The position numbers and the translations under genes are program-made. A stretch of DNA of 36,930 nt from a virus. This document shows, piece by piece, positions 6,325 to 36,909 of the stretch. The stretch lies in the IMG/VR virus record IMGVR_UViG_3300024346_000224, positions 1 to 36,930 of that record; one strand, 5' to 3'. The notes beneath the pieces are model-generated. The model saw only the letters and a list, made by a program, of their open reading frames with translations, was not told the origin of the DNA and searched no databases. Each line of letters starts with the position of its first letter. The stretch's first letter is position 1.

Positions 6325-7904
6325 TGCTCCGCGACTATCAACAAAGAGCCATAGATGACCTCTACAAGTGGTTTGAAGAGGGCAACCAAGGCAACCCCTG
6401 CTTGGTACTGCCCACAGGCTCAGGAAAGAGCCATATCGTGGCCGCGCTGTGCAAGGATGCATTGCAGAACTGGCCTGAGACTCAGGTGTTGATGCTGACC
6501 CATGTCAAAGAACTGATTGAGCAGAATGCCGAGAAGATGCGACAGCACTGGCCCAATGCGCCGATGGGGATTTACAGCGCCAGCATGAGGAGCAAGGAAC
6601 TGGGCCAGCCCATCACCTTTGCTGGCATCCAGTCGATCCACAAACGCGCCAAGGAGATCGGCCACATCGATCTGGTCATCATTGATGAGTGCCATCTGGT
6701 CAGCCACAAGAACGAAGGCGGCTACCGCAAGCTGCTTGGTGACCTGCTGGAGATCAACCCGGCCATGCGGGTGATTGGTTTGACGGCCACACCTTACCGC
6801 CTGGGACATGGTCTGATCACCGACAAGCCTGCGCTGTTTGATGGCCTGATTGAGTCGATCACGATCCCTGAGTTGATCTTCAAAGGCTTTTTGGCTACCT
6901 TGCGATCCAAGATCACCAAGTCGAAGCTGAACACCGATGGCGTCCACAAGCGCGGCGGCGAGTACATCGAATCCGAACTGCAAGATGCCGTGGACACCGA
7001 CGAGCAGAACCATGCTGTCGTGCGCGAGGTCATCTCGCTGGCTGGTGATCGCAAGGCGTGGCTATTTTTCTGCACTGGCGTCGATCACGCCAAGCACATC
7101 GCTGAAGTCCTGATCTCCAACGGCATCGCGGCAGGCTGCGTGACCGGCGAGACACCAAAAAAAGAGCGCGAGGAGATGCTCAAGGCATTCAAGGCAGGCC
7201 AGCTACGGGCGCTCACCAACGCCAATGTGTTGACCACCGGCTTTGACTACCCTGACATCGATCTGGTCGCCATGCTGCGGCCAACCATGTCGCCTGGGCT
7301 GTATGTGCAGATGGCCGGTCGTGGCCTTCGACCCAAGTCACACACCGACCACTGCCTAGTGCTGGACTTTGCCGGTGTGGTCGCAACGCATGGGCCAATC
7401 ACCGCCGTGCAGCCGCCAAAAAAGGGTGGTGAGGGAAATGGTGAGGCACCTGTGAAGGTCTGCGACAACTGTGGCGAGTTATGCGCCATTTCGGTGGCCG
7501 TATGCCCTGCCTGCGACACAGCCTTTCCTGCGCCAGAGCCGCCAAAGATGTTGCTCCGCAATGATGACATCATGGGCCTTGAAGGCACTGATCTGGAGGT
7601 CACAGCGTGGACATGGCGCAAGCACACCAGCAGGGCGAGTGGGAAAGATATGCTGGCCGTGACGTACTACGGCGGTCTGAGTGATGCACCAATCACCGAG
7701 TATTTGCCGGTGCTGCACGATGGCTATGCGGCCAACAAAGCCATGCGCTTGCTGCTGACGATGGCAAGTTCAGGTGGCGTTTCGCTGCTGAACATAGAAG
7801 GTCTTGAGGCCATCTCAAGCATGATGAACACCGCTCGCGCACCAAGCCTGATCGAGTTCAAAAAGGATGGAAAATTTTACCGAGTCATAAGGAGAGAATG
7901 GTAA
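6324..7904 (+). CDS. Superfamily 2 DEAD/DEAH-type helicase with zinc ribbon
   Basis: The protein shows SF2 helicase motifs in order: an N-terminal Q-like YQQRAID, Walker A LPTGSGKS (29-36), DECH (121-124), TATPYRLG (about 154-161) and motif VI QMAGRGLRP. After the second RecA domain comes a C-x2-C...C-x2-C zinc ribbon (VCDNCGELC and VCPACDTAF) and a roughly 110-residue C-terminal domain. This is the SSL2/YejH-like arrangement found in many phages next to a Cas4-like nuclease. The ATG at 6324 overlaps the preceding stop as TGATG. A TTG at 6321 is an alternative start. Role: DNA unwinding or remodelling in replication or recombination. Confidence 0.88.
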   Translation: MLRDYQQRAIDDLYKWFEEGNQGNPCLVLPTGSGKSHIVAALCKDALQNWPETQVLMLTHVKELIEQNAEKMRQHWPNAPMGIYSASMRSKELGQPITFAGIQSIHKRAKEIGHIDLVIIDECHLVSHKNEGGYRKLLGDLLEINPAMRVIGLTATPYRLGHGLITDKPALFDGLIESITIPELIFKGFLATLRSKITKSKLNTDGVHKRGGEYIESELQDAVDTDEQNHAVVREVISLAGDRKAWLFFCTGVDHAKHIAEVLISNGIAAGCVTGETPKKEREEMLKAFKAGQLRALTNANVLTTGFDYPDIDLVAMLRPTMSPGLYVQMAGRGLRPKSHTDHCLVLDFAGVVATHGPITAVQPPKKGGEGNGEAPVKVCDNCGELCAISVAVCPACDTAFPAPEPPKMLLRNDDIMGLEGTDLEVTAWTWRKHTSRASGKDMLAVTYYGGLSDAPITEYLPVLHDGYAANKAMRLLLTMASSGGVSLLNIEGLEAISSMMNTARAPSLIEFKKDGKFYRVIRREW

Positions 7905-10416: not shown

Positions 10417-10895
10417 CCAAAGACGAAGCACTGAAGCTGGCGCTTGATGCGCTGGAACTACCAAGCATGAAAACTTATGCGATGCTGGAACAATCTGGCG
10501 CAGCCATCACCGCCATCAAAGAAGCCCTAGCACAGCCAGCGCCGCCACCAGAGTGCAAGACCGAGGCCGAGCAAACGGAGTATGCCTTTGGATGGTGGAA
10601 GGCATTGGAGACGGTGAGGACTGAACAGCCAGCGCAGGAGCCGGTGGCGTGGATGATGAAATGGGCACAACATTCGCCATCTTTTACGACAGACAAATCA
10701 GATTACGTTTCTTGGTTTGCAGGTAAGGCGTCTTATCCAGACGAATTGGTCCCCCTCTACACCGCCCCACAGCAACGCCCGTGGGTAGGGCTGACGGATG
10801 AGGAAATAAACTTGATTTACGCAGCGCCACAAACCCATATTGGTCAATACGCTAGAGCCATCGAAGACAAGCTAAAGGAGAAGAATTTTGACTGA
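10413..10895 (+). CDS. Member 2 of tandem KLALEALE/TAPQQR paralogue family (160 aa)
   Basis: This copy carries DEALKLALDALELP, AAITAIKEALAQPAP, a central block with EAEQTEYAFGWWKALETV, QPAQEPVAWM and LYTAPQQRPWVGLT followed by a C-terminal helix. Its 10531-10610 segment matches 10988-11067 in the next gene with about five differences in 80 bp, and 10755-10796 matches 10261-10302 in the previous gene. It therefore looks like a mosaic of its two neighbours. Function is unknown. Confidence 0.7.
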   Translation: MTKDEALKLALDALELPSMKTYAMLEQSGAAITAIKEALAQPAPPPECKTEAEQTEYAFGWWKALETVRTEQPAQEPVAWMMKWAQHSPSFTTDKSDYVSWFAGKASYPDELVPLYTAPQQRPWVGLTDEEINLIYAAPQTHIGQYARAIEDKLKEKNFD

Positions 10896-11298
10896 ACGAC
10901 TTAAAGAACGTATCGCAGAGGAATGGGCAATGCTTGATCCCGTTGACCCGCTGCGTGGATTGTTGTCAGATGTGATGGACGTTTTGGCACAGCCAGCGCC
11001 TCCACCAGAGTGCAAGACCGAGGCCGAGCAAACAGCGTATGCCTTTGGCTGGTGGAAGGCCTTGGAGTCGTTGAGGACTGGACAGCCAGCGCAGGAGTCG
11101 GTGGGTCACCGCGTTGGGTTTTGGTGCGCCGAATTAACTTGTAATAAGTGTTATAGCGCAGAGTTTCGATTTAAGCACACCACCCAACAACAGCGCCAGT
11201 GGGTAGGGCTGACGGAAGCGGAAATTGACGAATGGCCACCGGAAATACACGGCGTAATTCGCTTAATTGACGCCCAACTCAAGGAGAAGAACACATGA
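10888..11298 (+). CDS. Member 3 of tandem paralogue family (136 aa), TTG start
   Basis: Translation begins at the TTG at 10888: AAGGAG lies 7 nt before it and no ATG gives the full domain. The N-terminus differs from the other members (MTERLKERIAEEWAML), but the protein keeps VLAQPAPPPECKTEAEQ, AFGWWKALE, GQPAQESVG and a QQRQWVGLTEAEIDEW block. A centre with two C-x2-C-like cysteines (WCAELTCNKCYS) is private to this copy. The tail helix resembles member 2. Confidence 0.7.
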   Translation: MTERLKERIAEEWAMLDPVDPLRGLLSDVMDVLAQPAPPPECKTEAEQTAYAFGWWKALESLRTGQPAQESVGHRVGFWCAELTCNKCYSAEFRFKHTTQQQRQWVGLTEAEIDEWPPEIHGVIRLIDAQLKEKNT

Positions 11299-11597
11299 CC
11301 AAAGACGAAGCATTGAAGCTGGCGCTACACGAACTGGAAGGCATACCCGTCTACAAAAAGTATGGTGTACGCATAAGTAACGCAATCACCGCCATCAAAG
11401 AAGCTTTGGCACTAACGAGCACGCAGTACGAGGAACAGCCAGCTCAGGAGTCGGTGGAATCTTTATACAACCCAAATCCGGTTGAGTATCAATACCATTA
11501 TCCAGACGGTTCATGGAGGTGTTCAAACGGTGAGGTAATAAATGGTATGCACCCAGATAAAGCAAGATCACTTTACGCACTAAAGGACAACACATAA
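11295..11597 (+). CDS. Member 4, short relative of the paralogue family (100 aa)
   Basis: It retains only the front half of the family: KDEALKLALHELEG (about 3-16), NAITAIKEALAL (about 29-40) and QPAQESVESL. The TAPQQR-GLT block is absent, and the C-terminal part reads YQYHYPDGSWRCSNGEVING. AAGGAG precedes the ATG, which overlaps the upstream stop. It may be a shortened or recombined copy. Confidence 0.65.
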   Translation: MTKDEALKLALHELEGIPVYKKYGVRISNAITAIKEALALTSTQYEEQPAQESVESLYNPNPVEYQYHYPDGSWRCSNGEVINGMHPDKARSLYALKDNT

Positions 11598-11998
11598 TGG
11601 ACATTTTGAAACGCATTGACCAAGCCCAGCAGTTTTGCAAGTTTTATGCGGATGGCGCTTATTCCGTTGAAACTGAAAAATGGAATCATCATGTCAATCC
11701 TGAATTTATTGAGGACATTCGCCAGTACATTGAATCGTTGCAACTTAAGCTGATGCACCTTCAAACTCAGCAAGCATACAAGGCTATATGTAAAGATGAA
11801 TCCTACGACATGATTGATCGCTTTTTACGTAACAACCTTTATGACGATGACTACGAATCTTTTTCAGAGGCACTGCACGAAATTGCCACCACCCCACAAC
11901 AGCAAGAGCCCCGCAACTTCTGCCCGAGGTGCGGTAAGCGCACGGCTGACTTGACGGTGATACACACCTGCACGCCACCGGAAGGAGGACACCAATGA
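11597..11998 (+). CDS. Hypothetical protein with C-terminal zinc-ribbon-like motif (133 aa)
   Basis: The first 90 residues are helical and acidic, with DMIDRFLRNNLYDDDYESF near the middle. The end contains TPQQQEPRNFCPRCGKRTAD and a later HTC, giving C-x2-C...H-x-C, likely a small zinc-binding tail. The TPQQ linker echoes the paralogue family just upstream. It starts in TAATG overlap and ends in ATGA overlap. Confidence 0.65.
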   Translation: MDILKRIDQAQQFCKFYADGAYSVETEKWNHHVNPEFIEDIRQYIESLQLKLMHLQTQQAYKAICKDESYDMIDRFLRNNLYDDDYESFSEALHEIATTPQQQEPRNFCPRCGKRTADLTVIHTCTPPEGGHQ

Positions 11999-12198
11999 CC
12001 AGACGAGACAAAGAGATGGCGAGGCAGTGCCTAAGCAACGCAGAAATGTTAAATACTGTCAATTTTGATTTGGACAAGTTTGCCGACCTCATCCGTGCCG
12101 ACGAGCGTGAGGCTTGTGCAAAGTTGTGTGTAAGCCACATTGGCTACCCACACCGACTTCATTTTGCAGCAGCAATCCGAGCAATGGGGAACACATGA
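11995..12198 (+). CDS. Conserved small phage protein with DEREACAKLC motif (67 aa)
   Basis: The motif FADLIRADEREACAKLCVSH (about residues 25-44) is a hallmark of a common but uncharacterised group of small phage proteins. The whole sequence is predicted helical, with two nearby cysteines. GGAGG precedes the ATG and the start overlaps the upstream stop. Confidence 0.7.
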   Translation: MTRRDKEMARQCLSNAEMLNTVNFDLDKFADLIRADEREACAKLCVSHIGYPHRLHFAAAIRAMGNT

Positions 12199-12278
12199 AA
12201 TTTGAAATCACTATTGCAGTTCTTGCTGCTGTCGGCGGGTTTGTCTGGCTGCTAATTTTGACGAAGGGGATGGTATGA
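12195..12278 (+). CDS. Tiny single-pass membrane peptide (27 aa)
   Basis: The ATG at 12195 overlaps the preceding stop, and the TGA at 12276-12278 overlaps the next ATG. The peptide is one transmembrane helix (ITIAVLAAVGGFVWLLIL, about residues 5-22) with charged ends. Its reality rests on the start-stop overlaps and on clear membrane character. Confidence 0.45.
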   Translation: MKFEITIAVLAAVGGFVWLLILTKGMV

Positions 12279-12472
12279 CCGAACAACGCTATCTTGCAGG
12301 GGGGCAAGAGTTCTACTACCCCCACGCAGGCGACCCGCCAGCGCCTGAGAACACCAAGCTGCTGCTGCTCACCACTGGCGGCATCTGCACCACGGGAACG
12401 TGGAACAACAACTGGTGCATCGGCTGGCTGCCGCTGCCCAAACGCAACATGACAAAAGAGGACATGAAATGA
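12275..12472 (+). CDS. DUF551-like small protein (65 aa)
   Basis: The C-terminal text TGTWNNNWCIGWLPLPKRN resembles the Trp/Pro-rich core of DUF551 proteins found in phages, and the N-terminal half has the usual Pro-rich approach (DPPAPENTKLLLLTTGG). Function is unknown for the family. AAGGGG precedes the ATG, which overlaps the tiny membrane peptide stop. Confidence 0.6.
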   Translation: MTEQRYLAGGQEFYYPHAGDPPAPENTKLLLLTTGGICTTGTWNNNWCIGWLPLPKRNMTKEDMK

Positions 12473-12714
12473 GAAAGTCAAACCAGAGCGCCCTGCGCGT
12501 TTTACTGCGTGGGTATGAGGATGGCCTGACTGTTTCCCAAATGGCAGCGTTCACTGACGCCCCTCAGAATTCAGTGCAACAATCCCTCAAGTGTATGCCT
12601 GACGCCTATATCGACCGCTGGAAAACCAGTGGGAGTAATCGGTATTTAAGCGCCGTCTGGTGTGTAGTTGTACCACCAGAGAATTGCCCCAAACCAGAAA
12701 GGAAGAAGCCATGA
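12469..12714 (+). CDS. Winged-helix-like hypothetical protein (81 aa)
   Basis: Residues 6-55 fit a helix-turn-helix plan: ALRVLLRGYEDGLTVSQMAA, then APQNSVQQSLKCMPDAYIDR as putative recognition helix. A beta-rich tail AVWCVVVPPENCPKPERK follows. I recognise the ending as shared by many small phage proteins. A longer open frame begins at 12400, but the ATG at 12469 has GAGG upstream and overlaps the previous stop. Confidence 0.7.
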   Translation: MRKSNQSALRVLLRGYEDGLTVSQMAAFTDAPQNSVQQSLKCMPDAYIDRWKTSGSNRYLSAVWCVVVPPENCPKPERKKP

Positions 12715-21325: not shown

Positions 21326-21979
21326 TTAAACGCCTGCACTTTCATAAACGTAATTATCTGGCGCAACGGTTTCCGTTGTAGCTGCTTGAGTTGCAACGAT
21401 TGGCGGCTTGCCGAAGTCAAAATATGTAGACGCAACAATTGGAACCCGGTTCATTGATGTATCACTTGGGTAAATAAAGTTCCACGCTTTTGGCACCGTC
21501 TTGATTCCTTGAATGCGATTGTCAAGAATTGTTCGGAAACTGGAACAAGAAATCCCCACAGTGGCAATGCGAATTCTCAGATTGTCATCAAACTGCTCTG
21601 TGATAGAAGCGTTCGAAACGATGCCGGTGTATCGTTTGAAGAACTGAAGCGTGGGTGATATGATGATCTGATTTTGCGAATCAAGGAACCCGCGCCACAC
21701 ATCAATATTGGAGCCTTTGATATTTGCCGCCAAGATGATTGAGACATTAGAGCCATCAACGCCAGTTAACTGGACAGTTAGATCGGTTGAGGTGGCCTTG
21801 ATGTTTCGATCAATCTGGCTTATTGACAAAAGACTTCCGAGATTATTGAAGGTCATGCCAGACACCGTAATCGGTGCTGCGGCATTGCAGAAGTAGTAAG
21901 TGTCTGTTGAAGTGGTCAGCCTGACAAATTCAGCTTGAACGATTGATGCGCTGTTCAGCGCGTTCATTGTTGTACTCAT
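21326..21979 (-). CDS. Minor tail protein (217 aa)
   Basis: The protein is beta-rich and carries ITVSGMTFNNLGSLLSISQI (about 38-57) and then DLTVQLTGVDGSN, a pattern common in phage distal-tail proteins lying between the tape measure and tip genes. No catalytic motif is visible. It starts in overlap with the upstream minor tail gene and is 5 bp from the GNAT gene. Lambda gpM/gpL-like baseplate hub roles are possible by position only. Confidence 0.7.
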   Translation of the reverse strand: MSTTMNALNSASIVQAEFVRLTTSTDTYYFCNAAAPITVSGMTFNNLGSLLSISQIDRNIKATSTDLTVQLTGVDGSNVSIILAANIKGSNIDVWRGFLDSQNQIIISPTLQFFKRYTGIVSNASITEQFDDNLRIRIATVGISCSSFRTILDNRIQGIKTVPKAWNFIYPSDTSMNRVPIVASTYFDFGKPPIVATQAATTETVAPDNYVYESAGV

Positions 21980-22626
21980 CCTATGATGTCCTCTATAAAC
22001 ACGAAATCACCGTCCCATTGCACAAAAGCGCCGTTGGTCATGGGGTTGAGCGTGTATGTCGGGCATTGTGCCGCAAGCAAGTAAAAGGTACAAGCCGATC
22101 CAACGGCGGTCAAGGTTCCAACGGATACGCTACCGATAACAGGCCGATGCAATGTCACCGGCACAGTGACACCTACTCCGCGCAAGACTTGAGCCGTCAC
22201 CTTGTAGGTGTAACTTCCAAGCTGGATGAAATCGCCAGCCGCAAAAATTACAACGCCAGAAGTAACGGAAGGAAGATTGCCCACGGTAATGGTTGTCGCA
22301 TTGGTGGCCGGGACAGATGCAAGTGTCAAAGCTGATACTTGGCCCAATGTCAAGCCACCTTGATATGCCGTAAACCAATTGAGGCCAGTGCCTGCAAACG
22401 TGATGGTCTGGGGAATCTGGCGGTCGTAGTTGTCAATGGTCTGTATCACGCCACGCACTTGGGGGTAATACAGGTAGTTGTGCGGCTTAACGGTGAATTG
22501 CCAAGGGACGGAAGTTAGGTACTGGGCCACACGCACCTGACCTGATCGGCTGACCTGTTGCCCAATAGTTCGTCGATTCTGGACGCCAATAGACTGGCTA
22601 ATGTCAAAGATGGTTTGAAAGCTCAT
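21976..22626 (-). CDS. Distal tail-like minor tail protein (216 aa)
   Basis: It directly follows the tape measure gene (TAATG overlap), the place occupied by gpM or a distal tail protein in lambda-like tails. Residues 20-100 have RTIGQQVSRSGQVRVAQYL and PWQFTVKPHNYLYYPQVRG, strand-rich text as in Dit-like proteins. The second half is a compact beta domain (FAAGDFIQLGSYTYKVT) typical of tail hub folds. Assignment is from position and composition. Confidence 0.7.
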   Translation of the reverse strand: MSFQTIFDISQSIGVQNRRTIGQQVSRSGQVRVAQYLTSVPWQFTVKPHNYLYYPQVRGVIQTIDNYDRQIPQTITFAGTGLNWFTAYQGGLTLGQVSALTLASVPATNATTITVGNLPSVTSGVVIFAAGDFIQLGSYTYKVTAQVLRGVGVTVPVTLHRPVIGSVSVGTLTAVGSACTFYLLAAQCPTYTLNPMTNGAFVQWDGDFVFIEDIIG

Positions 22627-25061
22627 TATGTTCTCCCGCGCCCAACGGCAAGGTTTTTATTGCCATAAGCATTTGCCGCCCAAACTGCTTTGGAACTGCC
22701 AAGAATTCTATCTTCAAAACTCTTGGTATCGATTGCATCAATGTTGTAGTTAGTGATATTGTTTACTGTTCCACCCATATCCCCAAGTTTGCCGTTTGGA
22801 ACAATGGTTCCAGCCGTCTTTGGCACAAACAATTCTGGCCCACGTTCACCGACCATTGAGGGAACGCCCACAGGTGGATCACCGCCATCAGCAAAGCCAA
22901 GCAGCTTTATACCGGCAGAAATAAGACCGCCAAAGCCGCCGCCACCGCTTGCACCTTCCCACAGTGCCATTGCCTGCTTCTTCAATTGGATCTTCAGCAA
23001 GTCTTGGAGAATGCTTTGCGTGAGCTTGCTAAAGTTTAGCGAGCCGGTGTTGACGAACTCATCCAATGCGGAGGTCATGTCCTTCCATACGGTGTCGTTG
23101 ATTTCTTTCATGTACGCCAACTGCTCTGTCAACTCGACATTCAGCTTTGCATCATTCTTCTTGGCGGCAGCGAGCCTGTTCCACTGATCCAATGTGGCCT
23201 TGTCGCCTTTGGACTCAAGAACATTTTTGGCAATATCGGCTTGGTATTTCGCCTCAATCTCCGCCAGCTTGACCTGCTTTTCGCTCATGCCAACAGTCTT
23301 GATCTGGGCTTCCAGCTTTTCCTTTTCAATTGACAGCGTGTTTTGGGCTGCATAGTATTGATTGGTGTAAACACCAAGCCGCTCCAGCCTATTGTTGTTT
23401 TCCTCGTCCTCAATCTTTTGACGCGCAAATCGTTCTGCCTGGGCGGCGTCTACGGCCTTGTTGATCCGCTTCTGATTAAAGTCGTCCATCTTTGCAAGAT
23501 ACTCAACACCCTCTTTCTCCACCTCAGAAAGATAGACGCGCAAACGCTGACCTTGGAAGTCTTTGTCCTTGGTTGCAATGTCCAGCAAATAATTTGCATA
23601 CATGTCTTCCCGAGTCTTGTTTGACTCAAGATAAATCTTCTGCTCATCATCAGCAGCAGCCAGCAGGTATGCGTACTCCAACGCTCGCTTGGCGTCAGCA
23701 GCTTGTTTCTTGCGCGAAAGCTCCGTATCAGCGCCACCGGAATCACCATACTTTTTGATGGCGCCCTTCTGGCCTTCCATTCTTGCTGACTCTTCCTCTG
23801 CGCTGACAAGAGTGGCAATCAGCTTCTTCTTCTGTTCTTCCAGGCGGCTTAATTCGTCTGCATAAGCCTTGACGTTTTCATCTTTATCACCGAGCAATGG
23901 GCGTGCCTTTGGCGCACCTTTGGCGGTCACCAAATTAATTTGCTCTTGGATTTTCCGGATCTGTTCTGGAATGGTGTCTGGCTTGCCAATATCCTTTACA
24001 GCCGCCCAAAAGTTTCCCCAGAATTTTGTACTGGCATCAAGGGCTTGATCCAAGTACCCAAGCTCAATCTTTGTCTTGTTGAAACTTTCGTTCAGCAAGT
24101 CACTGGTGTAGATAATTGATTCTTGCCTTTTGCCCTGCTTGTCAAGTGCCTCGATGTGCTTGTATTGTTCAAGCGTCAAAAAGTTGTATTGGTCGTTCAG
24201 CTTTCTGGCGCTCGACGCCGTTCCGTCAAGAGCAGGAATAAGTTTCGCGGCAGCTTCACTCGCAGTCAATCCGCTCAACTCAGAGAATTTCTGAATGGTC
24301 TTGGAGACGGAATCAAAGGTCTTGTTGGTAAACTGACCTGAGCCAATCATGGAGTTCAGGATTTCTTTGGCGTCGCCAATAGATGCCCTGGACGTGCTTG
24401 CAATGGTGGTCGCCATCACGCCAAACTCATCCACCGTGACTTTGGAATAGTTGCCGGTCAGGATGATGGAGTTGGTCAGGGCGTCAAATTCTTTGCGGCC
24501 TTGATATGCCCCAAAAGCCGCAGCGCCAATAGCTGCTCCGACAGCAATCATTCCGCCAGTGACGCTGAACACGATTGGGCCAAGCACTCGAAACATGTTG
24601 CCCAGGCCACCCATCTGATCCTTCAACTGACCACCCTGCTGGATGGCGGCAATCATCACGCTCTGGCCCGAAGCGATCTGAGTGAAGAAGTCGGTCGTCT
24701 GGTACATCAGACCTTGCTTTTGCCATGCTGTGAGGCCACCAGCGGCCTTGTGGGCGCCCGCAGCCACCTGGTCATAGGCAGCGGCCTCGGCAAGAAGTTT
24801 CGCTTTGTATGTGTCTGTTGCAGACATGAAGCGGCCTTCATTAATTTCTCGTTCAATTAATTGAACTTTAGTTAATGTTTTTCCGTAATCTTCTGTTGCG
24901 TATTTAAGCGAAAGTATTTCTTTAGCAGCCGCCTCAGAATCACGCTTAATAGCTTGACCAAGTTTTTTATTTTCTTGGATTGCCTTGTCAACAGACGCAG
25001 TAAACTCAGCCATGTCTAGGCCGAGAACAACACCCAGTCTAGCTGTGTAATTTGAAGCCAT
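22626..25061 (-). CDS. Tail tape measure protein
   Basis: The 811-residue protein sets tail length and later leaves the tail during DNA injection. It has long helical regions (residues 20-110 and 380-680), one clear hydrophobic segment (about 158-186, VLGPIVFSVTGG and following Ala/Gly) that may insert in the host membrane, and a C-terminal part with LTQSILQDLLKIQLKKQAMA, the lambda-family tape measure signature region. A Gly-rich segment and MVGERGPELFVPKTAG (near 745) are also typical. By the usual 1.5 angstrom per helical residue rule the tail would be roughly 120 nm (inference). Confidence 0.92.
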   Translation of the reverse strand: MASNYTARLGVVLGLDMAEFTASVDKAIQENKKLGQAIKRDSEAAAKEILSLKYATEDYGKTLTKVQLIEREINEGRFMSATDTYKAKLLAEAAAYDQVAAGAHKAAGGLTAWQKQGLMYQTTDFFTQIASGQSVMIAAIQQGGQLKDQMGGLGNMFRVLGPIVFSVTGGMIAVGAAIGAAAFGAYQGRKEFDALTNSIILTGNYSKVTVDEFGVMATTIASTSRASIGDAKEILNSMIGSGQFTNKTFDSVSKTIQKFSELSGLTASEAAAKLIPALDGTASSARKLNDQYNFLTLEQYKHIEALDKQGKRQESIIYTSDLLNESFNKTKIELGYLDQALDASTKFWGNFWAAVKDIGKPDTIPEQIRKIQEQINLVTAKGAPKARPLLGDKDENVKAYADELSRLEEQKKKLIATLVSAEEESARMEGQKGAIKKYGDSGGADTELSRKKQAADAKRALEYAYLLAAADDEQKIYLESNKTREDMYANYLLDIATKDKDFQGQRLRVYLSEVEKEGVEYLAKMDDFNQKRINKAVDAAQAERFARQKIEDEENNNRLERLGVYTNQYYAAQNTLSIEKEKLEAQIKTVGMSEKQVKLAEIEAKYQADIAKNVLESKGDKATLDQWNRLAAAKKNDAKLNVELTEQLAYMKEINDTVWKDMTSALDEFVNTGSLNFSKLTQSILQDLLKIQLKKQAMALWEGASGGGGFGGLISAGIKLLGFADGGDPPVGVPSMVGERGPELFVPKTAGTIVPNGKLGDMGGTVNNITNYNIDAIDTKSFEDRILGSSKAVWAANAYGNKNLAVGRGRT

Positions 25062-28652: not shown

Positions 28653-28996
28653 TAAACCGCCGTCAAAGGATCATTTCGGACGCACAAGAACAGTGCCGAC
28701 ATACGGTCATCTGCTTCGCGCACATTGTCAATTCGCCAGTCAAAACCACGCCAAGTAATCGAGTACAAGTTCTGGTTGTCGATGATGGTCTTTATGTTGG
28801 GTGTGTAGTTCAACGTAAATTCAACGACATCAGAATAAACCCGGTACTTTTCCGTGATTTTCACATTGTTTGCGACAGCATGAACCCGGCCTCTGGTGAT
28901 AAACCATAAAGTTTGGGTCGTTGCTTGCTCACCAAAGGTCGATTGACCAAAGGTGAGATTGTTGACCGTCAGGTTTTCAAACCGTGCTATTGCCAT
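28652..28996 (-). CDS. Head closure / head-tail joining protein
   Basis: The 114-residue beta-rich protein contains YRVYSDVVEFTLNYTPNIKT and SITWRGFDWRIDNVREADDR, like SPP1 gp16 / Phage_H_T_join proteins, where a beta barrel plugs the connector. It lies in the conserved order connector - head closure - tail terminator. It starts directly behind the connector stop and overlaps the next gene (TAATG). Confidence 0.75.
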   Translation of the reverse strand: MAIARFENLTVNNLTFGQSTFGEQATTQTLWFITRGRVHAVANNVKITEKYRVYSDVVEFTLNYTPNIKTIIDNQNLYSITWRGFDWRIDNVREADDRMSALFLCVRNDPLTAV

Positions 28997-29668
28997 TTAC
29001 ATCACCAAAGGTTTGTATGGGCGCAAAAGAGTTGCAACGCCAAATGGAATGTCATGCAGTTTCCGGTCGGTAGTGTTGCTGCGATTGTTGTATATGTGAG
29101 TAAGCAACAAAAGACCAGCTTGCTTGATGACGGGATATGCCGCCAATGGGCTTGCCACAGTCGAATAGTCGATCACGATTGGCGCGGTCATGGTCGAGTT
29201 GATGCTGGTGGGCAGACTCTGCACGATCAATTTGTTGCCAGAGTTGTCGTAGTAATACTGCGATGGATCAACAGTCACCGAGGTGGCTGGGAAATCGTCA
29301 TTCCAGTATTTCAACGCCGTGATGGTCACTCCAGGCAAAGACGAATTGATGTTTTGACTGACCTCTGGAATGTCCAGGCACACAGGTGCCGCTGCAAGGC
29401 TCTCAATACCGTACCAGACGCGATAAGACACCGGGAAGATGGAAAGCCCTAGGTAATCCTCAATCGCCTGCCTGATGGCTACTTCTAGCCCTGACAAATA
29501 CGTGTCCTGACTTTCGTCATCAAACATATTTAGCTGATTGGTGATTTCTGCAAGCGTCAACCAAGGCGTTGCATTATCACGACCAATCTGCTCAACCTTG
29601 GAGTAGTTGAACGGATTGCGCGTCACTGCCCCGAAGGGCAGGCCAGCAAGTGTGGAATCTGCTGCCAT
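28997..29668 (-). CDS. Head-tail connector protein (gp6-like)
   Basis: Residues 34-78 (TPWLTLAEITNQLNMFDDES then LSGLEVAIRQAIEDYLGLSI) form the helical DNA-packaging adaptor pattern of HK97 gp6-like connectors, followed by a longer beta-rich region. At 223 residues it is longer than HK97 gp6 but normal for the extended family that includes the FPVSYRVWY-type middle. It starts 3 bp after the second capsid gene and binds beneath the portal in related phages. Confidence 0.8.
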   Translation of the reverse strand: MAADSTLAGLPFGAVTRNPFNYSKVEQIGRDNATPWLTLAEITNQLNMFDDESQDTYLSGLEVAIRQAIEDYLGLSIFPVSYRVWYGIESLAAAPVCLDIPEVSQNINSSLPGVTITALKYWNDDFPATSVTVDPSQYYYDNSGNKLIVQSLPTSINSTMTAPIVIDYSTVASPLAAYPVIKQAGLLLLTHIYNNRSNTTDRKLHDIPFGVATLLRPYKPLVM

Positions 29669-29671
29669 TGA

Positions 29672-30712
29672 TTACGTCTCGATCAATCGAACGCCAGCAA
29701 ACGGGTCGCGCACGGAACTGACCATACGTTTCTCTGCGTACAGAGTAACGAAGCCGGGGGTCGTTTGTTCCATTGCTTGGACAGTCATTTCTTCAACATC
29801 GCAGATGTTGAGGAATCGAGGCCAGTTCGCCAGGTACACGGGGATTGCTCCGTCTGTACCGGTTGCGTCAAGGTAGGGGTTCGGGATGACGGGGAAGCCA
29901 AGAATGTTGACCGCTGGGCCTTCGCCAAGCTCACCAGTTTCAACCAAAGAGTAACCACCAGCGCCGTGAGCGTATTGACGGATTGCGCTGATGTAGCTGG
30001 GGTGCATCTGCCAAGCAGTTCCGGGCATATTCCAGTATTGAGGCGGCAATGCCTCTGCCATCTCAGCCAACGACTCATAGTCCACTGAGGTGTGAAGGTG
30101 CCCAACGGTAGCCAAGGTGTGCAGGCCATTGGTGATGCTGGTTCCAGACGTTCCGAAGGCCGCTGTAGCGCCCGCAGCGCCAGGGTAGCTGTTCAGGCCA
30201 CGCAAGCCGTCAGTGCCGCCAGTGGTCGTGGTGGTAGTTCCAGCCTGGTCATCGTTCAGGCCCATTGAGGCGCCTTCGATAGCCGCGAATTCCATCATCA
30301 GGTCTTCGACCAATTCAGACTCAAGGCCATTGATGTCGGACATGGCTGCGGTGCGGATCGGCAACTGAGCCGTGATCACGCGAGTGGGCAATTGCCAGAT
30401 CGTGGTGTTGGTGCCTGGCGTGCCGCTGTTGGGGGTAAACGTGTAGCCCCAAGGGTTTGTTTGGTTTGCCGCATTACCGGTCTTGGCTACGAATTGGGCG
30501 CTGGAGCCAGCAACTTTTTTCTGCCGCGCATAAACACGGAATGGGTTTGCATATCGCAGTGCTGCGAATGCGTCATCAAAATAAGTCTTACCACCTTGTC
30601 CATCGCCGCTGCCACCCAACGAGGCTGCTTCGCGCAAATCAATGGTGATTTTTTCTCCGGTTTCCAGAGTTTGTTTAACGCCGTCGAGGATTTTTTCGGT
30701 AATGGTTTTCAT
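29672..30712 (-). CDS. HK97-type major capsid protein, second paralogue (346 aa)
   Basis: This protein is homologous over its length to the product of the upstream capsid gene: both share GDGQGG-K/R-T, ALR-x-AN, a WGY box, Q-x-PIRTAA, GGTDGLRGLN and AFGTSGT. It lacks the roughly 100-residue N-terminal coiled-coil found in the first copy: here GSGDGQGG is near 34-41, against 111-117 there. A lattice of two HK97 folds is implied, or one copy may serve a special position such as the vertices. The ATG at 30712 follows GGAAG; a TTG at 30724 is the alternative. A cUUCGg hairpin separates it from the first copy. Confidence 0.85.
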   Translation of the reverse strand: MKTITEKILDGVKQTLETGEKITIDLREAASLGGSGDGQGGKTYFDDAFAALRYANPFRVYARQKKVAGSSAQFVAKTGNAANQTNPWGYTFTPNSGTPGTNTTIWQLPTRVITAQLPIRTAAMSDINGLESELVEDLMMEFAAIEGASMGLNDDQAGTTTTTTGGTDGLRGLNSYPGAAGATAAFGTSGTSITNGLHTLATVGHLHTSVDYESLAEMAEALPPQYWNMPGTAWQMHPSYISAIRQYAHGAGGYSLVETGELGEGPAVNILGFPVIPNPYLDATGTDGAIPVYLANWPRFLNICDVEEMTVQAMEQTTPGFVTLYAEKRMVSSVRDPFAGVRLIET

Positions 30713-30739
30713 GGTTTCTTCCAAGTTAGTTTCACCAAT

Positions 30740-30761
30740 AAGAGGGGCCGAAGCCCCCCTT
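30740..30761 (-). terminator. Strong cUUCGg hairpin between the two capsid genes (attenuator or processing site)
   Basis: On the minus strand AAGGGGGGC (30761-30753) pairs with GCCCCTCTT (30748-30740) around the tetraloop TTCG, giving nine base pairs with one G-U wobble. The cUUCGg loop is exceptionally stable. Only a weak U-containing tail (TCTTATT) follows, so it may terminate part of the transcripts, block 3' decay, or guide processing. In each case it would set different yields for the two capsid proteins. Confidence 0.75.
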
Positions 30762-30774
30762 AAAGTATCTGCAA

Positions 30775-32121
30775 TTAAGCAGCAGCAGTGCCGGTCGAGC
30801 GGAAACGCACCAGGGCGTTAGGATCGCGCACCGAAGTTGCCAGACGCTTCTCACCGTAGAAGGTGATGTAGCCAGGCAGGGTCTGGTCATAGCGACGCAT
30901 CACCATGTTCAGGCGGTCGATAATCGTGTGACCACGAGTCCAGTCGCCGAAGAACATTGGGTACTTGCTCACAGTGCCAGCCGCGCCGGTAGCCAGTTGG
31001 CTTGGTGCGTCCAGATACTTGTTCATGACCACATCAAAGCCCAACAACTGACCAATGATGCCATTGGGATTCAACGACTCAGTGGAGTTAAAAATTGGAC
31101 GACCATTGGTGTCTTGCAGGCCACGGATGGCTTGAGCAAGAATTGGGCTGACCATGAAACGCGCACTTTCCGTCCAATACTGTTGAGGCAGAGCGTAGAT
31201 CGTGTTGATCACGTCTTTGTACTGGATGTTGTTTGCGCCAACGGTGTTTGCATTGGTGGTCAACTGGTCGTAGGTTGCCAAACTGTGCAAGCCAGTCGTG
31301 GAACCAGTACCGGAAGTACCAAATGCGGGAGTGGAGGTCGTGCCGCCAGTGTAGGTTGCGTTTGCGCCAGGGTACTGGTTCAAGCCACGCAGACCATCAG
31401 CGCCGCCAGTAGCCACGGTAGAACCGGTGCCAGTTTGGTCGTTGTTGGAAATCATGGATTGAGCTTCAGACTGGGCGAACTCAGCCAGCATGTCGTCAAC
31501 GATGTTGGCTTCCAGGCCGTCGATGTCGTCCAGAGCCGCAGTACGGATCGGGAACTGCACATTGATGTCCTTGAGAACCAATTGCCAGATGCTGGTGTTT
31601 TCAGTGGTAGGCGTGCCGTTGTTTTGAACAGCGTAACCCCATTGAGCGCCAGCATTGCCGGTCTTCACGCGGAACTGATAGCTGGAGCCATCGGTAGCCA
31701 CGGTGCGAGACAGACCACGCATTTGGTTAGCCAAACGCAGAGCGACGAACACAGGGTCGTAGCTAGTGCGTCCACCTTGACCATCACCGCCAGCGGTCAG
31801 GCCAGCAGCTTCTTTCAAGTAGGCGTCGTACTGATCGGTGCTTTCAAACATCTTCAGTTCTTTTTCGCCTTGACGGCCTTTGTAGTACGTGGACAGTTGC
31901 TCACGCACAGCACGGTTGACATCGCCGCGAACGGTCTTGGCAATATTGATGACGGGGGCAGCTTGCACGGAGGCTACTTTGGCTTCCAGGGCGGCAACCA
32001 TTACAGCCATTTCAGCTTTTACAGCTTCCACGGCGGCGGGGATTTTGGCTTCAACAGCCGACACAGCTTCAGCCTGCTTGGCTTCAATTGCGTCCAGTTT
32101 TTCTAGGATCACTTGAGACAT
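30775..32121 (-). CDS. HK97-type major capsid protein, first paralogue with delta-like coiled coil (448 aa)
   Basis: Residues 1-60 are a Glu/Lys/Ala/Val coiled coil (KLDAIEAKQAEAVSAVEAKI and onward), corresponding to the HK97 delta domain that acts as internal scaffold and is removed by the prohead protease encoded just upstream. The HK97 fold follows: GGDGQGGRTSYDPVFVALRL, then PIRTAALDDIDGLEANIVDD, and a C-terminal GYITFYGEKRLATSVRDPNA. AAAGG precedes the ATG. Presence of scaffold domain and place after the protease suggest this is the main shell subunit. Confidence 0.92.
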   Translation of the reverse strand: MSQVILEKLDAIEAKQAEAVSAVEAKIPAAVEAVKAEMAVMVAALEAKVASVQAAPVINIAKTVRGDVNRAVREQLSTYYKGRQGEKELKMFESTDQYDAYLKEAAGLTAGGDGQGGRTSYDPVFVALRLANQMRGLSRTVATDGSSYQFRVKTGNAGAQWGYAVQNNGTPTTENTSIWQLVLKDINVQFPIRTAALDDIDGLEANIVDDMLAEFAQSEAQSMISNNDQTGTGSTVATGGADGLRGLNQYPGANATYTGGTTSTPAFGTSGTGSTTGLHSLATYDQLTTNANTVGANNIQYKDVINTIYALPQQYWTESARFMVSPILAQAIRGLQDTNGRPIFNSTESLNPNGIIGQLLGFDVVMNKYLDAPSQLATGAAGTVSKYPMFFGDWTRGHTIIDRLNMVMRRYDQTLPGYITFYGEKRLATSVRDPNALVRFRSTGTAAA

Positions 32122-32125
32122 GGAA

Positions 32126-32902
32126 TTAACCTTTCAGTCGTTTTTCGAGGGATTTGAGAAGCTCACGACGCTCAAGAGCGGCGAGAATTTCATCGTTAGC
32201 CGCATCTGATAATACATCCCGTACTTCAGATTCGGTTTCAACTGCAACAGGAGCAACATCACGTTTCTCCACGATGCCTTTGATTACAGACGCGGCTAAT
32301 TTCGCATCTTTTTTGTCAAGTCCTGCATCCCGCAGAGCCTGTTCAAAAACCTTCAGATCGGCAGAGCCGTCGGGCCGGAAATACTCCAACTTGCTGACGT
32401 TTGCTTCTGGGTTGTTGGGGTACATCACCACGGAGACTTCGCGCAGTCCGCCTTTGGTGATTTGGAAATAGGCTTCATCCGATTGATCGGGTTCGCCATT
32501 GGCGTTGACCATTTGATAGTCTTCAGCATAAGCACCAACAGACACGCCGCCAAACATGCTGGGCGACTCGCACATGATGGTGTACATGTCTTTGCCGGCA
32601 GCGGTGTTCATGTAAATGCGGCCTTCAGCAGTCATGCCGGAGTCGGTCATTTCAAACGATGTCCACTCACCAATCGGCATTGAATCCGAGTTGTGATTCA
32701 TGAACATTGGAAGAGGCTTGCCAGTCTTGGCAAAGGCTTCCGCCCAGTCCATGAAGCCTTCTGGCTTGTAATTGAACCTGCGACCATCGGCGCCTTCACG
32801 AGCGCCCCATGTGGTTACGGTGGCTTCAATTTTGCCGGTCTGGCCCTTGGCTTCTTTCACCAACCGTGCTTCGCACAGCATCGTTACATTTTTTTGCGTC
32901 AT
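32126..32902 (-). CDS. Prohead protease (HK97 family, S78)
   Basis: The 258-residue protein carries the serine protease signature of HK97 proheads: H70 in MFMNHN and S121 in MFGGVSVGAYAED, followed by LREVSVVMYPNNPEANVSKL, the usual third conserved block. It removes the scaffold part of the capsid protein and itself before DNA packaging. The C-terminal 80 residues are helical and charged and may bind the capsid protein. GGAG lies before the ATG; the first capsid gene starts 4 bp beyond its end. Confidence 0.9.
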   Translation of the reverse strand: MTQKNVTMLCEARLVKEAKGQTGKIEATVTTWGAREGADGRRFNYKPEGFMDWAEAFAKTGKPLPMFMNHNSDSMPIGEWTSFEMTDSGMTAEGRIYMNTAAGKDMYTIMCESPSMFGGVSVGAYAEDYQMVNANGEPDQSDEAYFQITKGGLREVSVVMYPNNPEANVSKLEYFRPDGSADLKVFEQALRDAGLDKKDAKLAASVIKGIVEKRDVAPVAVETESEVRDVLSDAANDEILAALERRELLKSLEKRLKG

Positions 32903-33013
32903 TGATTACTCCATCAACTTTGGTTCTGTCAATGTCATATGTTGTGATGGATTTTTTCTTCACACGCAGCATTTGGCGTGCAAAGAATTGTTTGATTGTA
33001 TCCTGCAAAATGA

Positions 33014-34411
33014 TTATTTTCCAATATTCATCTTTTTGGACTGGTTGCCACCACCACCGCCCGTGTCTTGAGGGCTTGTTCCGGGAATAGTATCAGATTT
33101 TGCAGAAGGATCAAGCAGATCATCGGCGCCTTCTTTGTTGGACATATTCATGTATTGGCGGGCCTCATTTGGCGTCATGATACCAGCACCAACTCCGGCA
33201 ACAGCAAAGTTCATTTGATCCAAGGGAGCGCCCTTGAGGAAATCGCGCGTATCAAACTCAATTTTCAGGTTGGGGTATCCCTGAAACAATTGCATCTTCA
33301 GCTTCTGTTGGATATTCACCGTAGTGGGGTAAATCGTGGACTTGTAGAACTCATCCAGAATCGTCTGGGTGTTGTTGTACTTCTGGTCGGCGATTCCGAT
33401 CAATGCGGGTGGCACACCAAACAGGCCACAGATCCGTTTCATGGTTTGCGTCTTCAGCTTCTCTGTGTCAGCGTCCTGCAAGGTGAGCATTTGCAGTGGC
33501 GTGTACTTCATGCCTTGATCCAGCAGCATTCCCTGTCCAGGCTTGCTCGGATCTGACTGACGTGAGCCGGTCATGCTCGACCAGGCTTCCTTCAGGCGGG
33601 CTGCAATCTCCTTGAACTTGCCATCGGGGATGACTTGCTCGGTGGTGAACATGCCAGAGGGTTTTGCACCGTTCTGCATGACGTAGTTGGCGTACAGGTC
33701 GATGTCCTGATCCAGGCTGACCAGTTCAGCGGCCAGGATGCCCTTGTTGAAGCCCGCAGAGCCTTGCCACGCCATGTCTTTGACGTGCATGACCTGGTGG
33801 GCAGTCAAAGGCTCATCGCGGCTGAAACCGTAGCTGGGCGTGGACAGGCGATAGCTGGGGTAGCGCGTGGGCGTGATGGTCACAGCAATCAGCGTGCTGT
33901 CCAGCATGTACATCTCCAGCGGAGTCTCTAGGGAGTTGCCCTGATTCTCGCGCCACCAGAGGGTGAATGCCTCGCCAGACAATTCGTACCACATGATCCA
34001 CTGATACCAGAACTCATAGGCGCTCTGGAAGCGATTTGGGGCGGCAAGAAGCGCCGCAACCTGCTTGGCCTTGGCCTTGTCTCGCTTGCCTACCTTTTCG
34101 TCCTTGCAGGCGTCCACATAGGTGCCATCGTCCAGTTCCGCCATCACGCGGATGGGAAGCTGGGAGATTGCCCGAGCCTTGGTGGCAACGCACGCCAGGA
34201 CAGTCGAATTGCGGGTGAGCAGCGACATGTCCACCGGGCGACCGGCGTTGTTGGTCGATGACGTGGTGACGTACAGAATCTGGGTATTGACCGTGGGATT
34301 GGTCTTACCGGCCTGATAAACGATGTTATTTCCAAGCGCGGTCTGTCCAAATAGCGTATTGGATTCGTTCGCGGGCGCTTGTTTTTGCTTGAAAATGTCG
34401 AAAATAGCCAT
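33014..34411 (-). CDS. Portal protein (HK97 family)
   Basis: At 465 residues it matches HK97 portal size. Clear family blocks are STVLACVATKARAISQLPIR (about 67-86), a central GVPPALIGIADQKYNN and the C-terminal GVGAGIMTPNEARQYMNMSN. It forms the dodecameric ring through which DNA is packed and ejected. The last 30 residues are a flexible Gly-rich tail (DTGGGGGNQSKKMN). The gap of 111 bp after the gene is the longest among the head genes and holds no convincing gene. GGAG precedes the ATG. Confidence 0.92.
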   Translation of the reverse strand: MAIFDIFKQKQAPANESNTLFGQTALGNNIVYQAGKTNPTVNTQILYVTTSSTNNAGRPVDMSLLTRNSTVLACVATKARAISQLPIRVMAELDDGTYVDACKDEKVGKRDKAKAKQVAALLAAPNRFQSAYEFWYQWIMWYELSGEAFTLWWRENQGNSLETPLEMYMLDSTLIAVTITPTRYPSYRLSTPSYGFSRDEPLTAHQVMHVKDMAWQGSAGFNKGILAAELVSLDQDIDLYANYVMQNGAKPSGMFTTEQVIPDGKFKEIAARLKEAWSSMTGSRQSDPSKPGQGMLLDQGMKYTPLQMLTLQDADTEKLKTQTMKRICGLFGVPPALIGIADQKYNNTQTILDEFYKSTIYPTTVNIQQKLKMQLFQGYPNLKIEFDTRDFLKGAPLDQMNFAVAGVGAGIMTPNEARQYMNMSNKEGADDLLDPSAKSDTIPGTSPQDTGGGGGNQSKKMNIGK

Positions 34412-34435: not shown

Positions 34436-36115
34436 CTACCAATCAACTGACCGAAAGCCAAATGAATCGTTCACAAAGACGTTGTCCAGATGGCAATGCA
34501 TCGCCATGATGAGGGTAATGATGCCGTCCACCTTGGCTGATGGGTCGGATTCGTTCTTCCTGACCTTGACGTTTCCATTCACGTCAGTATAGACCTCGCA
34601 GTTGCCAAGCTGCCAGCCCACAAATGGGTTGCCATCGTGCTTGATTGCCTTCTTCAGAATCAGCTGTTCTGTGGTCTTGGACGGGTTGGAAAGTACCGAC
34701 ATACTCTGACCGACCTTTTTTACGGGTAAAGCATTCCCAAAAAGATTCGCGACCAGTGATGCAGCATTATATGGGTCAAAGCCAATTTCCTTGACCTCAT
34801 TCTCTTTGCATTCGTTGTTGATGTACTGCTCAATCTCGTTCATGTCCGTCACATTGCCTTGGGTCAACTTCAGGATGCCAGATTCCACCGCCTGCATATA
34901 AATGGATCGGTAGTGGTTCGGAATGAACGAAAGCGACTCCTCTGGCAAGAAGAATTTGAACTTGGCAAAGAAGTCTTCTTCGCCGTACCGCTTCACCGTG
35001 GCGACCGCATTCAAATCGCGGCTGTGCGCCAGGTCAAACGCCATGAAAACGGCCTCTGGCTTGTCTGCTGGCTCTACCCCCACGGATTCGTCCCAATGGC
35101 GTCTATCGACCCATGCGGAGTTCGCGCTGACGTAGATGTTCAACTGCTTGCACAGGAATTCATTCAGGCTGGCAGGCTTGGCCGATGCCTCTGCCGCCAT
35201 GTGGGCGATATGCTCTGTAGTGACAGAAACTCCCAGCATGGGATTGGCCTTGCCCCACACTGCCGGGTCGCTCCACTCATCGCCCGGATCGATGCTGTAC
35301 AGCAGGCCAAACCAGCGGAAATTGTCTGGTGCAGCGCCGCGCAGCACATTTCGGAAGTGGCTCAAGTCCTCATAGAACTTGGTTTCCTTGGTGAAACTGG
35401 CTGTGGTCAGGTACATCCGCAGCGGGTTTTTTCGTGCGCCCATACCTGAATGCAGCACCTCAATGGATGACCGCTCCACGATCTGCGCCGCCTCATCAAT
35501 CATGGCACAGGACGGGTTCTTTCCATCGCCGGTCTTCTTGTTGTCTCTGGACAGCGCCCGATAGGTCGAGGTGGAGTCACCGGCCTTTTTCAATTCGTTG
35601 CGGTAGACGATGAATTTTGAGGTCAGTTCCGACTTCATATTCTCGACAATGGCTTTGGACGAATCAAAGCAAATCGTGGCCTGTTCCCGGTTGGTCGCCA
35701 GGGTGAAGACTTCAGCGCCAGCGTCACCGAACTGGAGTTCGTAGAGCGCAATGATGGATGCCAAAGTGGTCTTGCCAGATTTGCGCGGAACGAACAGGAT
35801 AACGTCAGTTGTCCAGCGGAAGCTGTGGTCACGCTTGTCGCGGAAGCCGTAGATGGCCGCCAGCATCAATACCTGAAATCCGCTCAACTCAATTGTTTTG
35901 CCTGCTTCTGCGCCCTTTACATGGCGCGTGAACTTGACAAATTTCAGGATGTGTTCAGCCTTGGCTGGGACGAACTCATAAGGTGCGTCCTTGCGCTCCA
36001 CCATGTCGAGGAATCTCTGACACGATAGCCTGACATCCTCGCAGGCCGATACATCTCCACGGACTACGCCAATGGCGTATTCAAAAGCTGGTTTAAGCAG
36101 AGGCGAATAATTCAT
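34436..36115 (-). CDS. Terminase large subunit
   Basis: The 559-residue packaging motor has an N-terminal ATPase with Walker A VPRKSGKT (109-116) and Walker B CAMIDEAA (203-210), and a C-terminal nuclease with acidic residues in MAFDLAHSRDLNAV and in EIGFDPYNAA. These are hallmarks of Terminase_1/HK97-like large subunits, which cut concatemers and drive DNA into the prohead. Its start overlaps the small subunit by 23 bp. The family often packages from cos ends, but the end type of this phage cannot be proven from sequence. Confidence 0.93.
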   Translation of the reverse strand: MNYSPLLKPAFEYAIGVVRGDVSACEDVRLSCQRFLDMVERKDAPYEFVPAKAEHILKFVKFTRHVKGAEAGKTIELSGFQVLMLAAIYGFRDKRDHSFRWTTDVILFVPRKSGKTTLASIIALYELQFGDAGAEVFTLATNREQATICFDSSKAIVENMKSELTSKFIVYRNELKKAGDSTSTYRALSRDNKKTGDGKNPSCAMIDEAAQIVERSSIEVLHSGMGARKNPLRMYLTTASFTKETKFYEDLSHFRNVLRGAAPDNFRWFGLLYSIDPGDEWSDPAVWGKANPMLGVSVTTEHIAHMAAEASAKPASLNEFLCKQLNIYVSANSAWVDRRHWDESVGVEPADKPEAVFMAFDLAHSRDLNAVATVKRYGEEDFFAKFKFFLPEESLSFIPNHYRSIYMQAVESGILKLTQGNVTDMNEIEQYINNECKENEVKEIGFDPYNAASLVANLFGNALPVKKVGQSMSVLSNPSKTTEQLILKKAIKHDGNPFVGWQLGNCEVYTDVNGNVKVRKNESDPSAKVDGIITLIMAMHCHLDNVFVNDSFGFRSVDW

Positions 36116-36464
36116 CTACGTCACTGACCTTATTTGATTTCTTGGGCCGTCCACGGGCGACCAGCGCCAGTTCAGCCAATATCTTGATTGCTTTGTCGAG
36201 GGATTCGGTGCGGATCTTGTACCACGCGCTGGGGGCTTCACCAGAATGGAATTCGTAGGTTAATCCAGTGTCCAGAATACGCACATGGGCGGTGATCATT
36301 GTGCCGACCACCATCACCAATGAGCCAATCAGAAGTTCATCTGACGCCGTGATGTTGCCGGTGTTGTTCTCCACCTCATTGCGGATGGCTGTCTCGAATG
36401 ACTTCTCTTCCCACTTCATGGGGTCGCGGAGGAACTCAATAATTTGTCGAGGGGCTGCTCTCAT
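36093..36464 (-). CDS. Terminase small subunit (P27-like)
   Basis: The 123-residue protein lies directly upstream of the large subunit and overlaps it by 23 bp. The C-terminal half has SAWYKIRTESLDKAIKILAE, characteristic of P27-family small terminases, and ends with a basic-acidic GRPKKSNKVSDVDELF. The N-terminal half is helical and would bind the packaging start site. The order HNH - small - large terminase is standard in HK97-like genomes. Confidence 0.85.
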   Translation of the reverse strand: MRAAPRQIIEFLRDPMKWEEKSFETAIRNEVENNTGNITASDELLIGSLVMVVGTMITAHVRILDTGLTYEFHSGEAPSAWYKIRTESLDKAIKILAELALVARGRPKKSNKVSDVDELFASA

Positions 36465-36909
36465 ATTCGTTTAATACTCGCTGGTAATCGACCAATTCAT
36501 AGTCAATTGGTTCGGGTTGAACGTAATGCCTAAATATACCCTTCTTCTCCAAAGCGGATTTGACGCCGTGGCATTCAGGGCAAAGTGATTGGAAAACATT
36601 GTGCGTGAATGCGTGCTCTCCAATAGCACGCCATGCAAACAAATGGTCTACATGGGAAGCCATATTTACGTAGCCAAGTGATTGACAGGAAACGCAAAGC
36701 GGGTTCTGAGATAACACGCGCTGACGTATAGAGTCCCACGCAATCATGGCATACATTTTATTGAACTGTTTTCTGTTGTCATCTACCTTTCTTTTTGGTG
36801 CATGGCCTTCGCAGAGCGATTTACCACGGGCGCAAGGCATTTTGCAGCCAAACTCTGAGCAACGATCTGTTGGGAATGTGGGCATTTGTGTGATATTAGC
36901 ACGAGGCAT
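36436..36909 (-). CDS. HNH endonuclease
   Basis: The 157-residue protein has C72-x2-C75, ASHVDHLFAW (H86, D88, H89), N104 and C110-x2-C113-H114, a complete zinc-bound HNH nuclease core. An N-terminal cluster (C17, C22, C26, C33) likely binds a second zinc. HNH proteins next to terminase stimulate cos cutting and packaging in HK97-like phages. The ATG at 36909 lies directly behind AAGGGGG, closer than ideal, so an ATG at 36885 is an alternative. Its promoter must lie beyond the right edge. Confidence 0.88.
   Translation of the reverse strand: MPRANITQMPTFPTDRCSEFGCKMPCARGKSLCEGHAPKRKVDDNRKQFNKMYAMIAWDSIRQRVLSQNPLCVSCQSLGYVNMASHVDHLFAWRAIGEHAFTHNVFQSLCPECHGVKSALEKKGIFRHYVQPEPIDYELVDYQRVLNEYESSPSTNY

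Follow-up and report, generated by a model that had tools for sequence, protein, structure and literature searches.

Two adjacent paralogous genes for HK97-type capsid proteins, here termed MCP1 and MCP2, were found in the head module of a 36,930-base viral record, the whole of which is called the window below. The same pair recurs throughout the sampled part of an abundant aquatic phage lineage. We propose that these phages probably have an obligatory two-protein HK97 capsid that arose independently of T4. Its scaffold-less paralogue would be located at the vertices, or at fixed positions in mixed capsomers, and could serve as a display platform accepting tail-fibre-like domains.

The head module lies on the minus strand. 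Its order is the terminase large subunit (34436..36115, Pfam TerL ATPase and nuclease domains), the portal protein (33014..34411, PF04860, E 8e-63), a Peptidase_S78 prohead maturation protease (32126..32902, PF04586, E 2.5e-8, with a PHROG head maturation protease match), MCP1 (30775..32121, 448 aa), MCP2 (29672..30712, 346 aa) and, adjoining MCP2, an Ad1/gp6-like head-tail adaptor (28997..29668, PF05135, E 2e-5, with a PHROG head-tail adaptor match). The length of MCP2 is counted from an ATG; a TTG located 12 nt upstream would give 350 aa. Pfam and PHROG profile searches found a single gene each for protease, portal and terminase in the genome, and no small terminase was identified in the window. 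An ORF just upstream of the terminase (36436-36909) weakly resembles HNH nucleases (Pfam E 0.001, below the cut-off) and is possibly an HK97 gp74-like packaging nuclease. The 111-nt gap between the portal and protease genes (32903-33013) has a sizeable predicted fold of -23.2 kcal/mol. A promoter scan found no sigma-70 promoter in 28900-32200, and thus an internal promoter for MCP2 is not suggested.

An earlier note on this DNA, made from the sequence alone, described the two genes as tandem homologous capsid genes of the HK97 type, and the ORFs, profile matches, sequence comparison and structural models all agree with this description. In a single BLASTP comparison MCP1 and MCP2 share 150 identities over 359 positions (42%, 199 bits), and the E-value of 9e-65 excludes chance kinship. 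The GDGQGG, PIRTAA, GLRGLN and AFGTSGT blocks named in the same note are present in both proteins. Both match the Phage_capsid family PF05065 with scores above the cut-off of 24.2 bits (102 bits, E 5e-29 for MCP1; 62.2 bits, E 7e-17 for MCP2). AlphaFold2 models, built from alignments of 53 sequences for MCP1 and 70 for MCP2, are of moderate confidence (pLDDT 70 and 72, pTM 0.62 and 0.70, respectively). Compared with solved structures by VIA-align, the MCP1 model gives Z 22.6 with the RcGTA capsid and 17.7 with HK97 (1ohg), and the MCP2 model gives 21.6 and 16.7; the RcGTA capsid is the best solved match of both among the matches listed. Both models also match the encapsulin chains 9bje and 9bix with Z 16-18. 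The profile match and the predicted fold thus identify MCP1 as a putative HK97-fold major capsid protein. The same two lines of evidence point to an HK97 fold in MCP2, which retains the whole HK97 core and has many positions in common with MCP1. The prediction of a different fold for the second protein, named in the note as a refuting outcome, was thus not obtained, at moderate model confidence. By sequence and predicted fold, the relatives of the pair are the capsids of RcGTA and HK97-type siphophages, the fold being closest to RcGTA.

The two proteins differ mainly at the N-terminus and in the presumed A-domain. In the window, the GDGQGG block is preceded by about 111 aa in MCP1 versus 36 aa in MCP2; among 257 distinct protein pairs the median length of the N-terminal region is 116 aa in MCP1 and 38 aa in MCP2. 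The pro-region of MCP1 (residues 1 to about 110) has predicted helices at residues 2-51 and 64-81, and MCP2 keeps a single short predicted helix at its N-terminus (residues 4-18). A helical N-terminus of about 100 aa and an adjoining maturation protease gene are what characterizes a fused delta scaffold, and the predicted helices of MCP1, whose gene adjoins that of the S78 protease, fit a scaffold of this delta-like kind. The earlier proposal that only the first protein carries such a region stands for MCP1 and needs correction for MCP2, in which most of the region is absent but not all of its 100 residues: about 75 aa are missing and 36 aa are kept. In addition, MCP2 lacks some MCP1 segments in the presumed A-domain. 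The variability of MCP2 peaks at residues 201-220, 241-260 and 281-300, which probably correspond to this domain and are better conserved in MCP1.

Relatives of the pair were drawn from scans of viral contigs and a scan of genome contigs; three of the viral-contig scans gave at least about 590 relatives each. Both genes are complete in 373 of the fetched loci, and in every one of these MCP2 immediately follows MCP1 and is encoded on the same strand. As some of these loci overlap, the number of distinct protein pairs, 257, is the more reliable figure. The search for further genomes with the same arrangement, suggested in the earlier note, thus returned the pair in one and the same order. All loci with a single copy are cut by the end of the contig or of the flank, L401 being read by eye. 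The invariant linkage indicates that the pair is ancestral to the whole sampled lineage, a large group of small, mostly freshwater tailed phages. The lineage includes a cultured freshwater siphophage of Methylophilaceae, P19250A (KX815270), which has the same gene pair; its proteins are 59% (MCP1) and 53% (MCP2) identical to those of the window. In that record MCP2 (P19250A_0006, 6066-7124, our locus L375) is annotated as a 'hypothetical protein' and the pair has passed unnoticed, so that the annotation can now be corrected. P19250A is further annotated with two tape-measure genes, at 10718-12502 and at 21390-24995. Another member of the lineage, on contig JAHEYD010000010.1 (L232), was found in a metagenome-assembled genome (MAG) labelled Candidatus Nitrosotalea, an archaeon, and is probably a mis-binned phage contig. 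In one relative (L175:5395-6348) a frameshift divides the MCP2 gene into two ORFs, as a result of either an assembly error or a real loss.

In order to date and root the duplication, we sought a close relative with a single copy. None was found among the matches listed from the viral-contig and genome-contig scans, three whole MAGs bearing relatives and about 750 class-level genomes, and the only outgroup available consists of remote phages with one MCP (21-28% identity). Burkholderia phage Bcep176, Rhizobium phage RHph_X2_25 and Azospirillum phage Cd share the terminase-portal-protease-MCP order with the window and, as for MCP1, have a full-length MCP and a hairpin after its gene; these phages and RcGTA differ from the window in having one capsid protein only. 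The annotated MCPs of the three phages have the MCP1-like length of 425-458 aa. Judging from the length of the outgroup proteins, the pro-region was more likely lost in MCP2 than gained in MCP1.

Both genes are under purifying selection, as indicated by the median pairwise dN/dS of 0.13 for MCP1 and 0.14 for MCP2, and both are therefore functional. A FastTree phylogeny built from 54 pairs places the MCP1 and the MCP2 sequences in two distinct clades, with support of 0.994 for MCP2 and a low 0.28 for MCP1. The separation indicates one old duplication without subsequent gene conversion, and the sequences are thus consistent with a single ancient event whose products have been kept without homogenization. 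The paralogues still have 62 positions in common, and 14 differences between them are fixed. MCP2 has diverged faster than MCP1, most of all in the presumed A-domain. In a Mantel test the trees of the two genes are positively but modestly correlated (r 0.30; none of 999 permutations as high), hence strict co-divergence is not claimed. The scenario of tandem duplication followed by loss of most of the scaffold from the downstream copy, put forward in the note, is well supported by the finding of 42% identical neighbours that are mutually monophyletic and of single-MCP relatives with full-length proteins and the same gene order.

The gap between the two genes is about 60 nt long and nearly always contains a GC-rich hairpin, whose sequence varies and whose structure is kept. 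In the window the hairpin (30741..30760, minus strand) has a UUCG loop and resembles a terminator or attenuator with a weak T-run, and the predicted fold of the gap is -18.7 kcal/mol. For 125 distinct gaps the mean fold z is -2.9, compared with -0.03 for control sequence preceding MCP1 and -0.85 for that downstream of MCP2. By our count a clear T-run is present in only about half of the gaps. MCP2 would thus lie, behind the hairpin, in a portion of the module expected to have lower expression. A comparable hairpin follows the MCP gene in four single-MCP phages. We therefore consider the hairpin an old feature, and reject the possibility that it evolved as a device for setting the MCP1:MCP2 ratio. 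The gap exceeds 200 nt in 11 pairs. Among these, an HNH-like ORF (Pfam E 4e-5) lies between the capsid genes at L401:5341-5710, and ORFs resembling GIY-YIG homing endonucleases by eye lie there at L030:5358-6003 and L050:2250-2897; both capsid genes persist in these three loci despite the insertions.

In five contigs (L472, L473, which equals L445, L474, L475 and L476) an insertion of 70 aa was found between the E-loop strands of MCP2 (for example, L472:4238-4450). It is a tail-fibre-like beta domain that matches PHROG 21413 (E 7e-15) and PHROG 38233, a 'tail fiber protein' family (E 8e-12). The MCP1 proteins of L472 and L474 do not have it, and a tblastn search did not find the insert sequence elsewhere in the fetched DNA. 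The presence of an adhesion-like domain on MCP2 only suggests that this protein is surface-exposed at positions where crowding permits, and its E-loop is a possible natural surface-display site.

The closest functional parallel is the gp23/gp24 pair of T4: two paralogous HK97-fold shell proteins, one with a far shorter propeptide, and the pair described here likewise consists of adjacent, maintained HK97-fold paralogues, one of them short in this region. In T4 the propeptide of gp23 has 65 aa and that of the vertex protein gp24, which is thought to derive from a gp23 duplication, has 10 aa, and the gp24-bypass mutations, which allow gp23 to replace gp24, are partly located within the gp23 A-domain (PMC9958956). 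By analogy, the short pro-region and the A-domain difference of MCP2 would form the same kind of pattern. Unlike T4, the genomes considered here are small and siphophage-like (about 37-41 kb), and the paralogues are 42% identical versus 17-20% for gp23/gp24. A tblastn search of the phage collection gave no T4-like record, and no T4 chain was present among the structure matches listed. The resemblance to gp23/gp24 would be one of working mode, the duplication having presumably occurred independently of T4.

A division of labour between MCP1 and MCP2 appears to be the best explanation of these observations. On balance we lean slightly towards a two-component capsid with hexamers of MCP1 and with MCP2 as a minor scaffold-less subunit, most likely at the vertices; the co-assembly, stoichiometry and vertex position of MCP2 are what we infer for it. 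MCP1, with its own delta-like scaffold, would assemble with the portal and the protease and form most of the shell, presumably as hexamers. MCP2, a duplicate lacking the scaffold coiled coil, would be unable to start assembly alone. It would probably be made in a smaller amount because of its position behind the conserved hairpin, and could enter the shell as a minor component, most likely in vertex pentamers, like gp24 of T4. About 55 copies of MCP2 would be needed if the shell is T=7, both figures being derived from genome size only. MCP2 would also offer a surface site at which some relatives display an extra domain. Against this model, HK97-type capsids of such a genome size normally need one protein only.

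The main rival of the vertex model is a shell of mixed capsomers, in which MCP1 and MCP2 occupy fixed or random positions in the same hexamers and pentamers. We regard it as distinctly less probable, yet it has real points in its favour: the interfaces may remain compatible at 42% identity, which is higher than that of gp23/gp24, both models match encapsulin chains, and mixed HK97-fold shells are known from the Family 2B encapsulin of Streptomyces lydicus, in which two co-encoded HK97-fold proteins, Enc1 and Enc2, co-assemble (PMC12407261). That system differs from the present pair in that it is not a virus, has no pro-region, protease or portal, and shows irregular tiling and variable composition. 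Two-component encapsulins are set apart by enzyme cargo and by the absence of portal, protease and terminase, and all three of these genes flank the pair. The deep separation of the paralogues without gene conversion, their 14 fixed differences, the A-domain difference and the loss of one pro-region together suggest that the roles are specialized and not interchangeable.

An accessory role, with MCP2 acting as a capsid-derived decoration, cement or surface-display protein or as a portal-vertex collar, could account for the tail-fibre-like domain in the E-loop of the five relatives and for the position of the gene, which immediately precedes that of the head-tail adaptor, a site often occupied by small genes in single-MCP relatives. 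We consider it unlikely, given that MCP2 retains the entire HK97 core and many positions shared with MCP1; to our knowledge, no decoration protein with an HK97 fold has been described. Two complete capsid genes could also provide two particle types, a possibility raised in the note, or two alternative shells, in either case of one protein each. This reading finds no support here and is very improbable, as MCP2 lacks the scaffold region and there is a single protease, portal and terminase. Least credible of all is a redundant or decaying MCP2 without any role. The frameshifted ORF of one relative, perhaps an assembly error, would agree with decay, but the copy is universally retained, has a dN/dS of about 0.14 and persists despite the homing-endonuclease-like insertions; the maintenance of both copies rules out that MCP2 is a degenerate leftover.

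The authors of a 2025 paper on the S. lydicus encapsulin named T4 as the other known HK97 assembly that preferentially uses two protomers; in all other shells above T=1, according to them, a single protein supplies both the hexamers and the pentamers (PMC12407261). We found no description of an HK97 capsid pair of the present kind in the open-access literature on two-capsid phages and shells. The existence of the cultured relative P19250A makes virion proteomics and cryo-EM feasible. At 42% identity, MCP1 and MCP2 are close enough for direct domain-swap tests of how a subunit chooses between five-fold and six-fold rings. If the proposed model is true, an old pair of capsid genes kept universally within a common phage lineage would represent an independent second solution besides that of T4.
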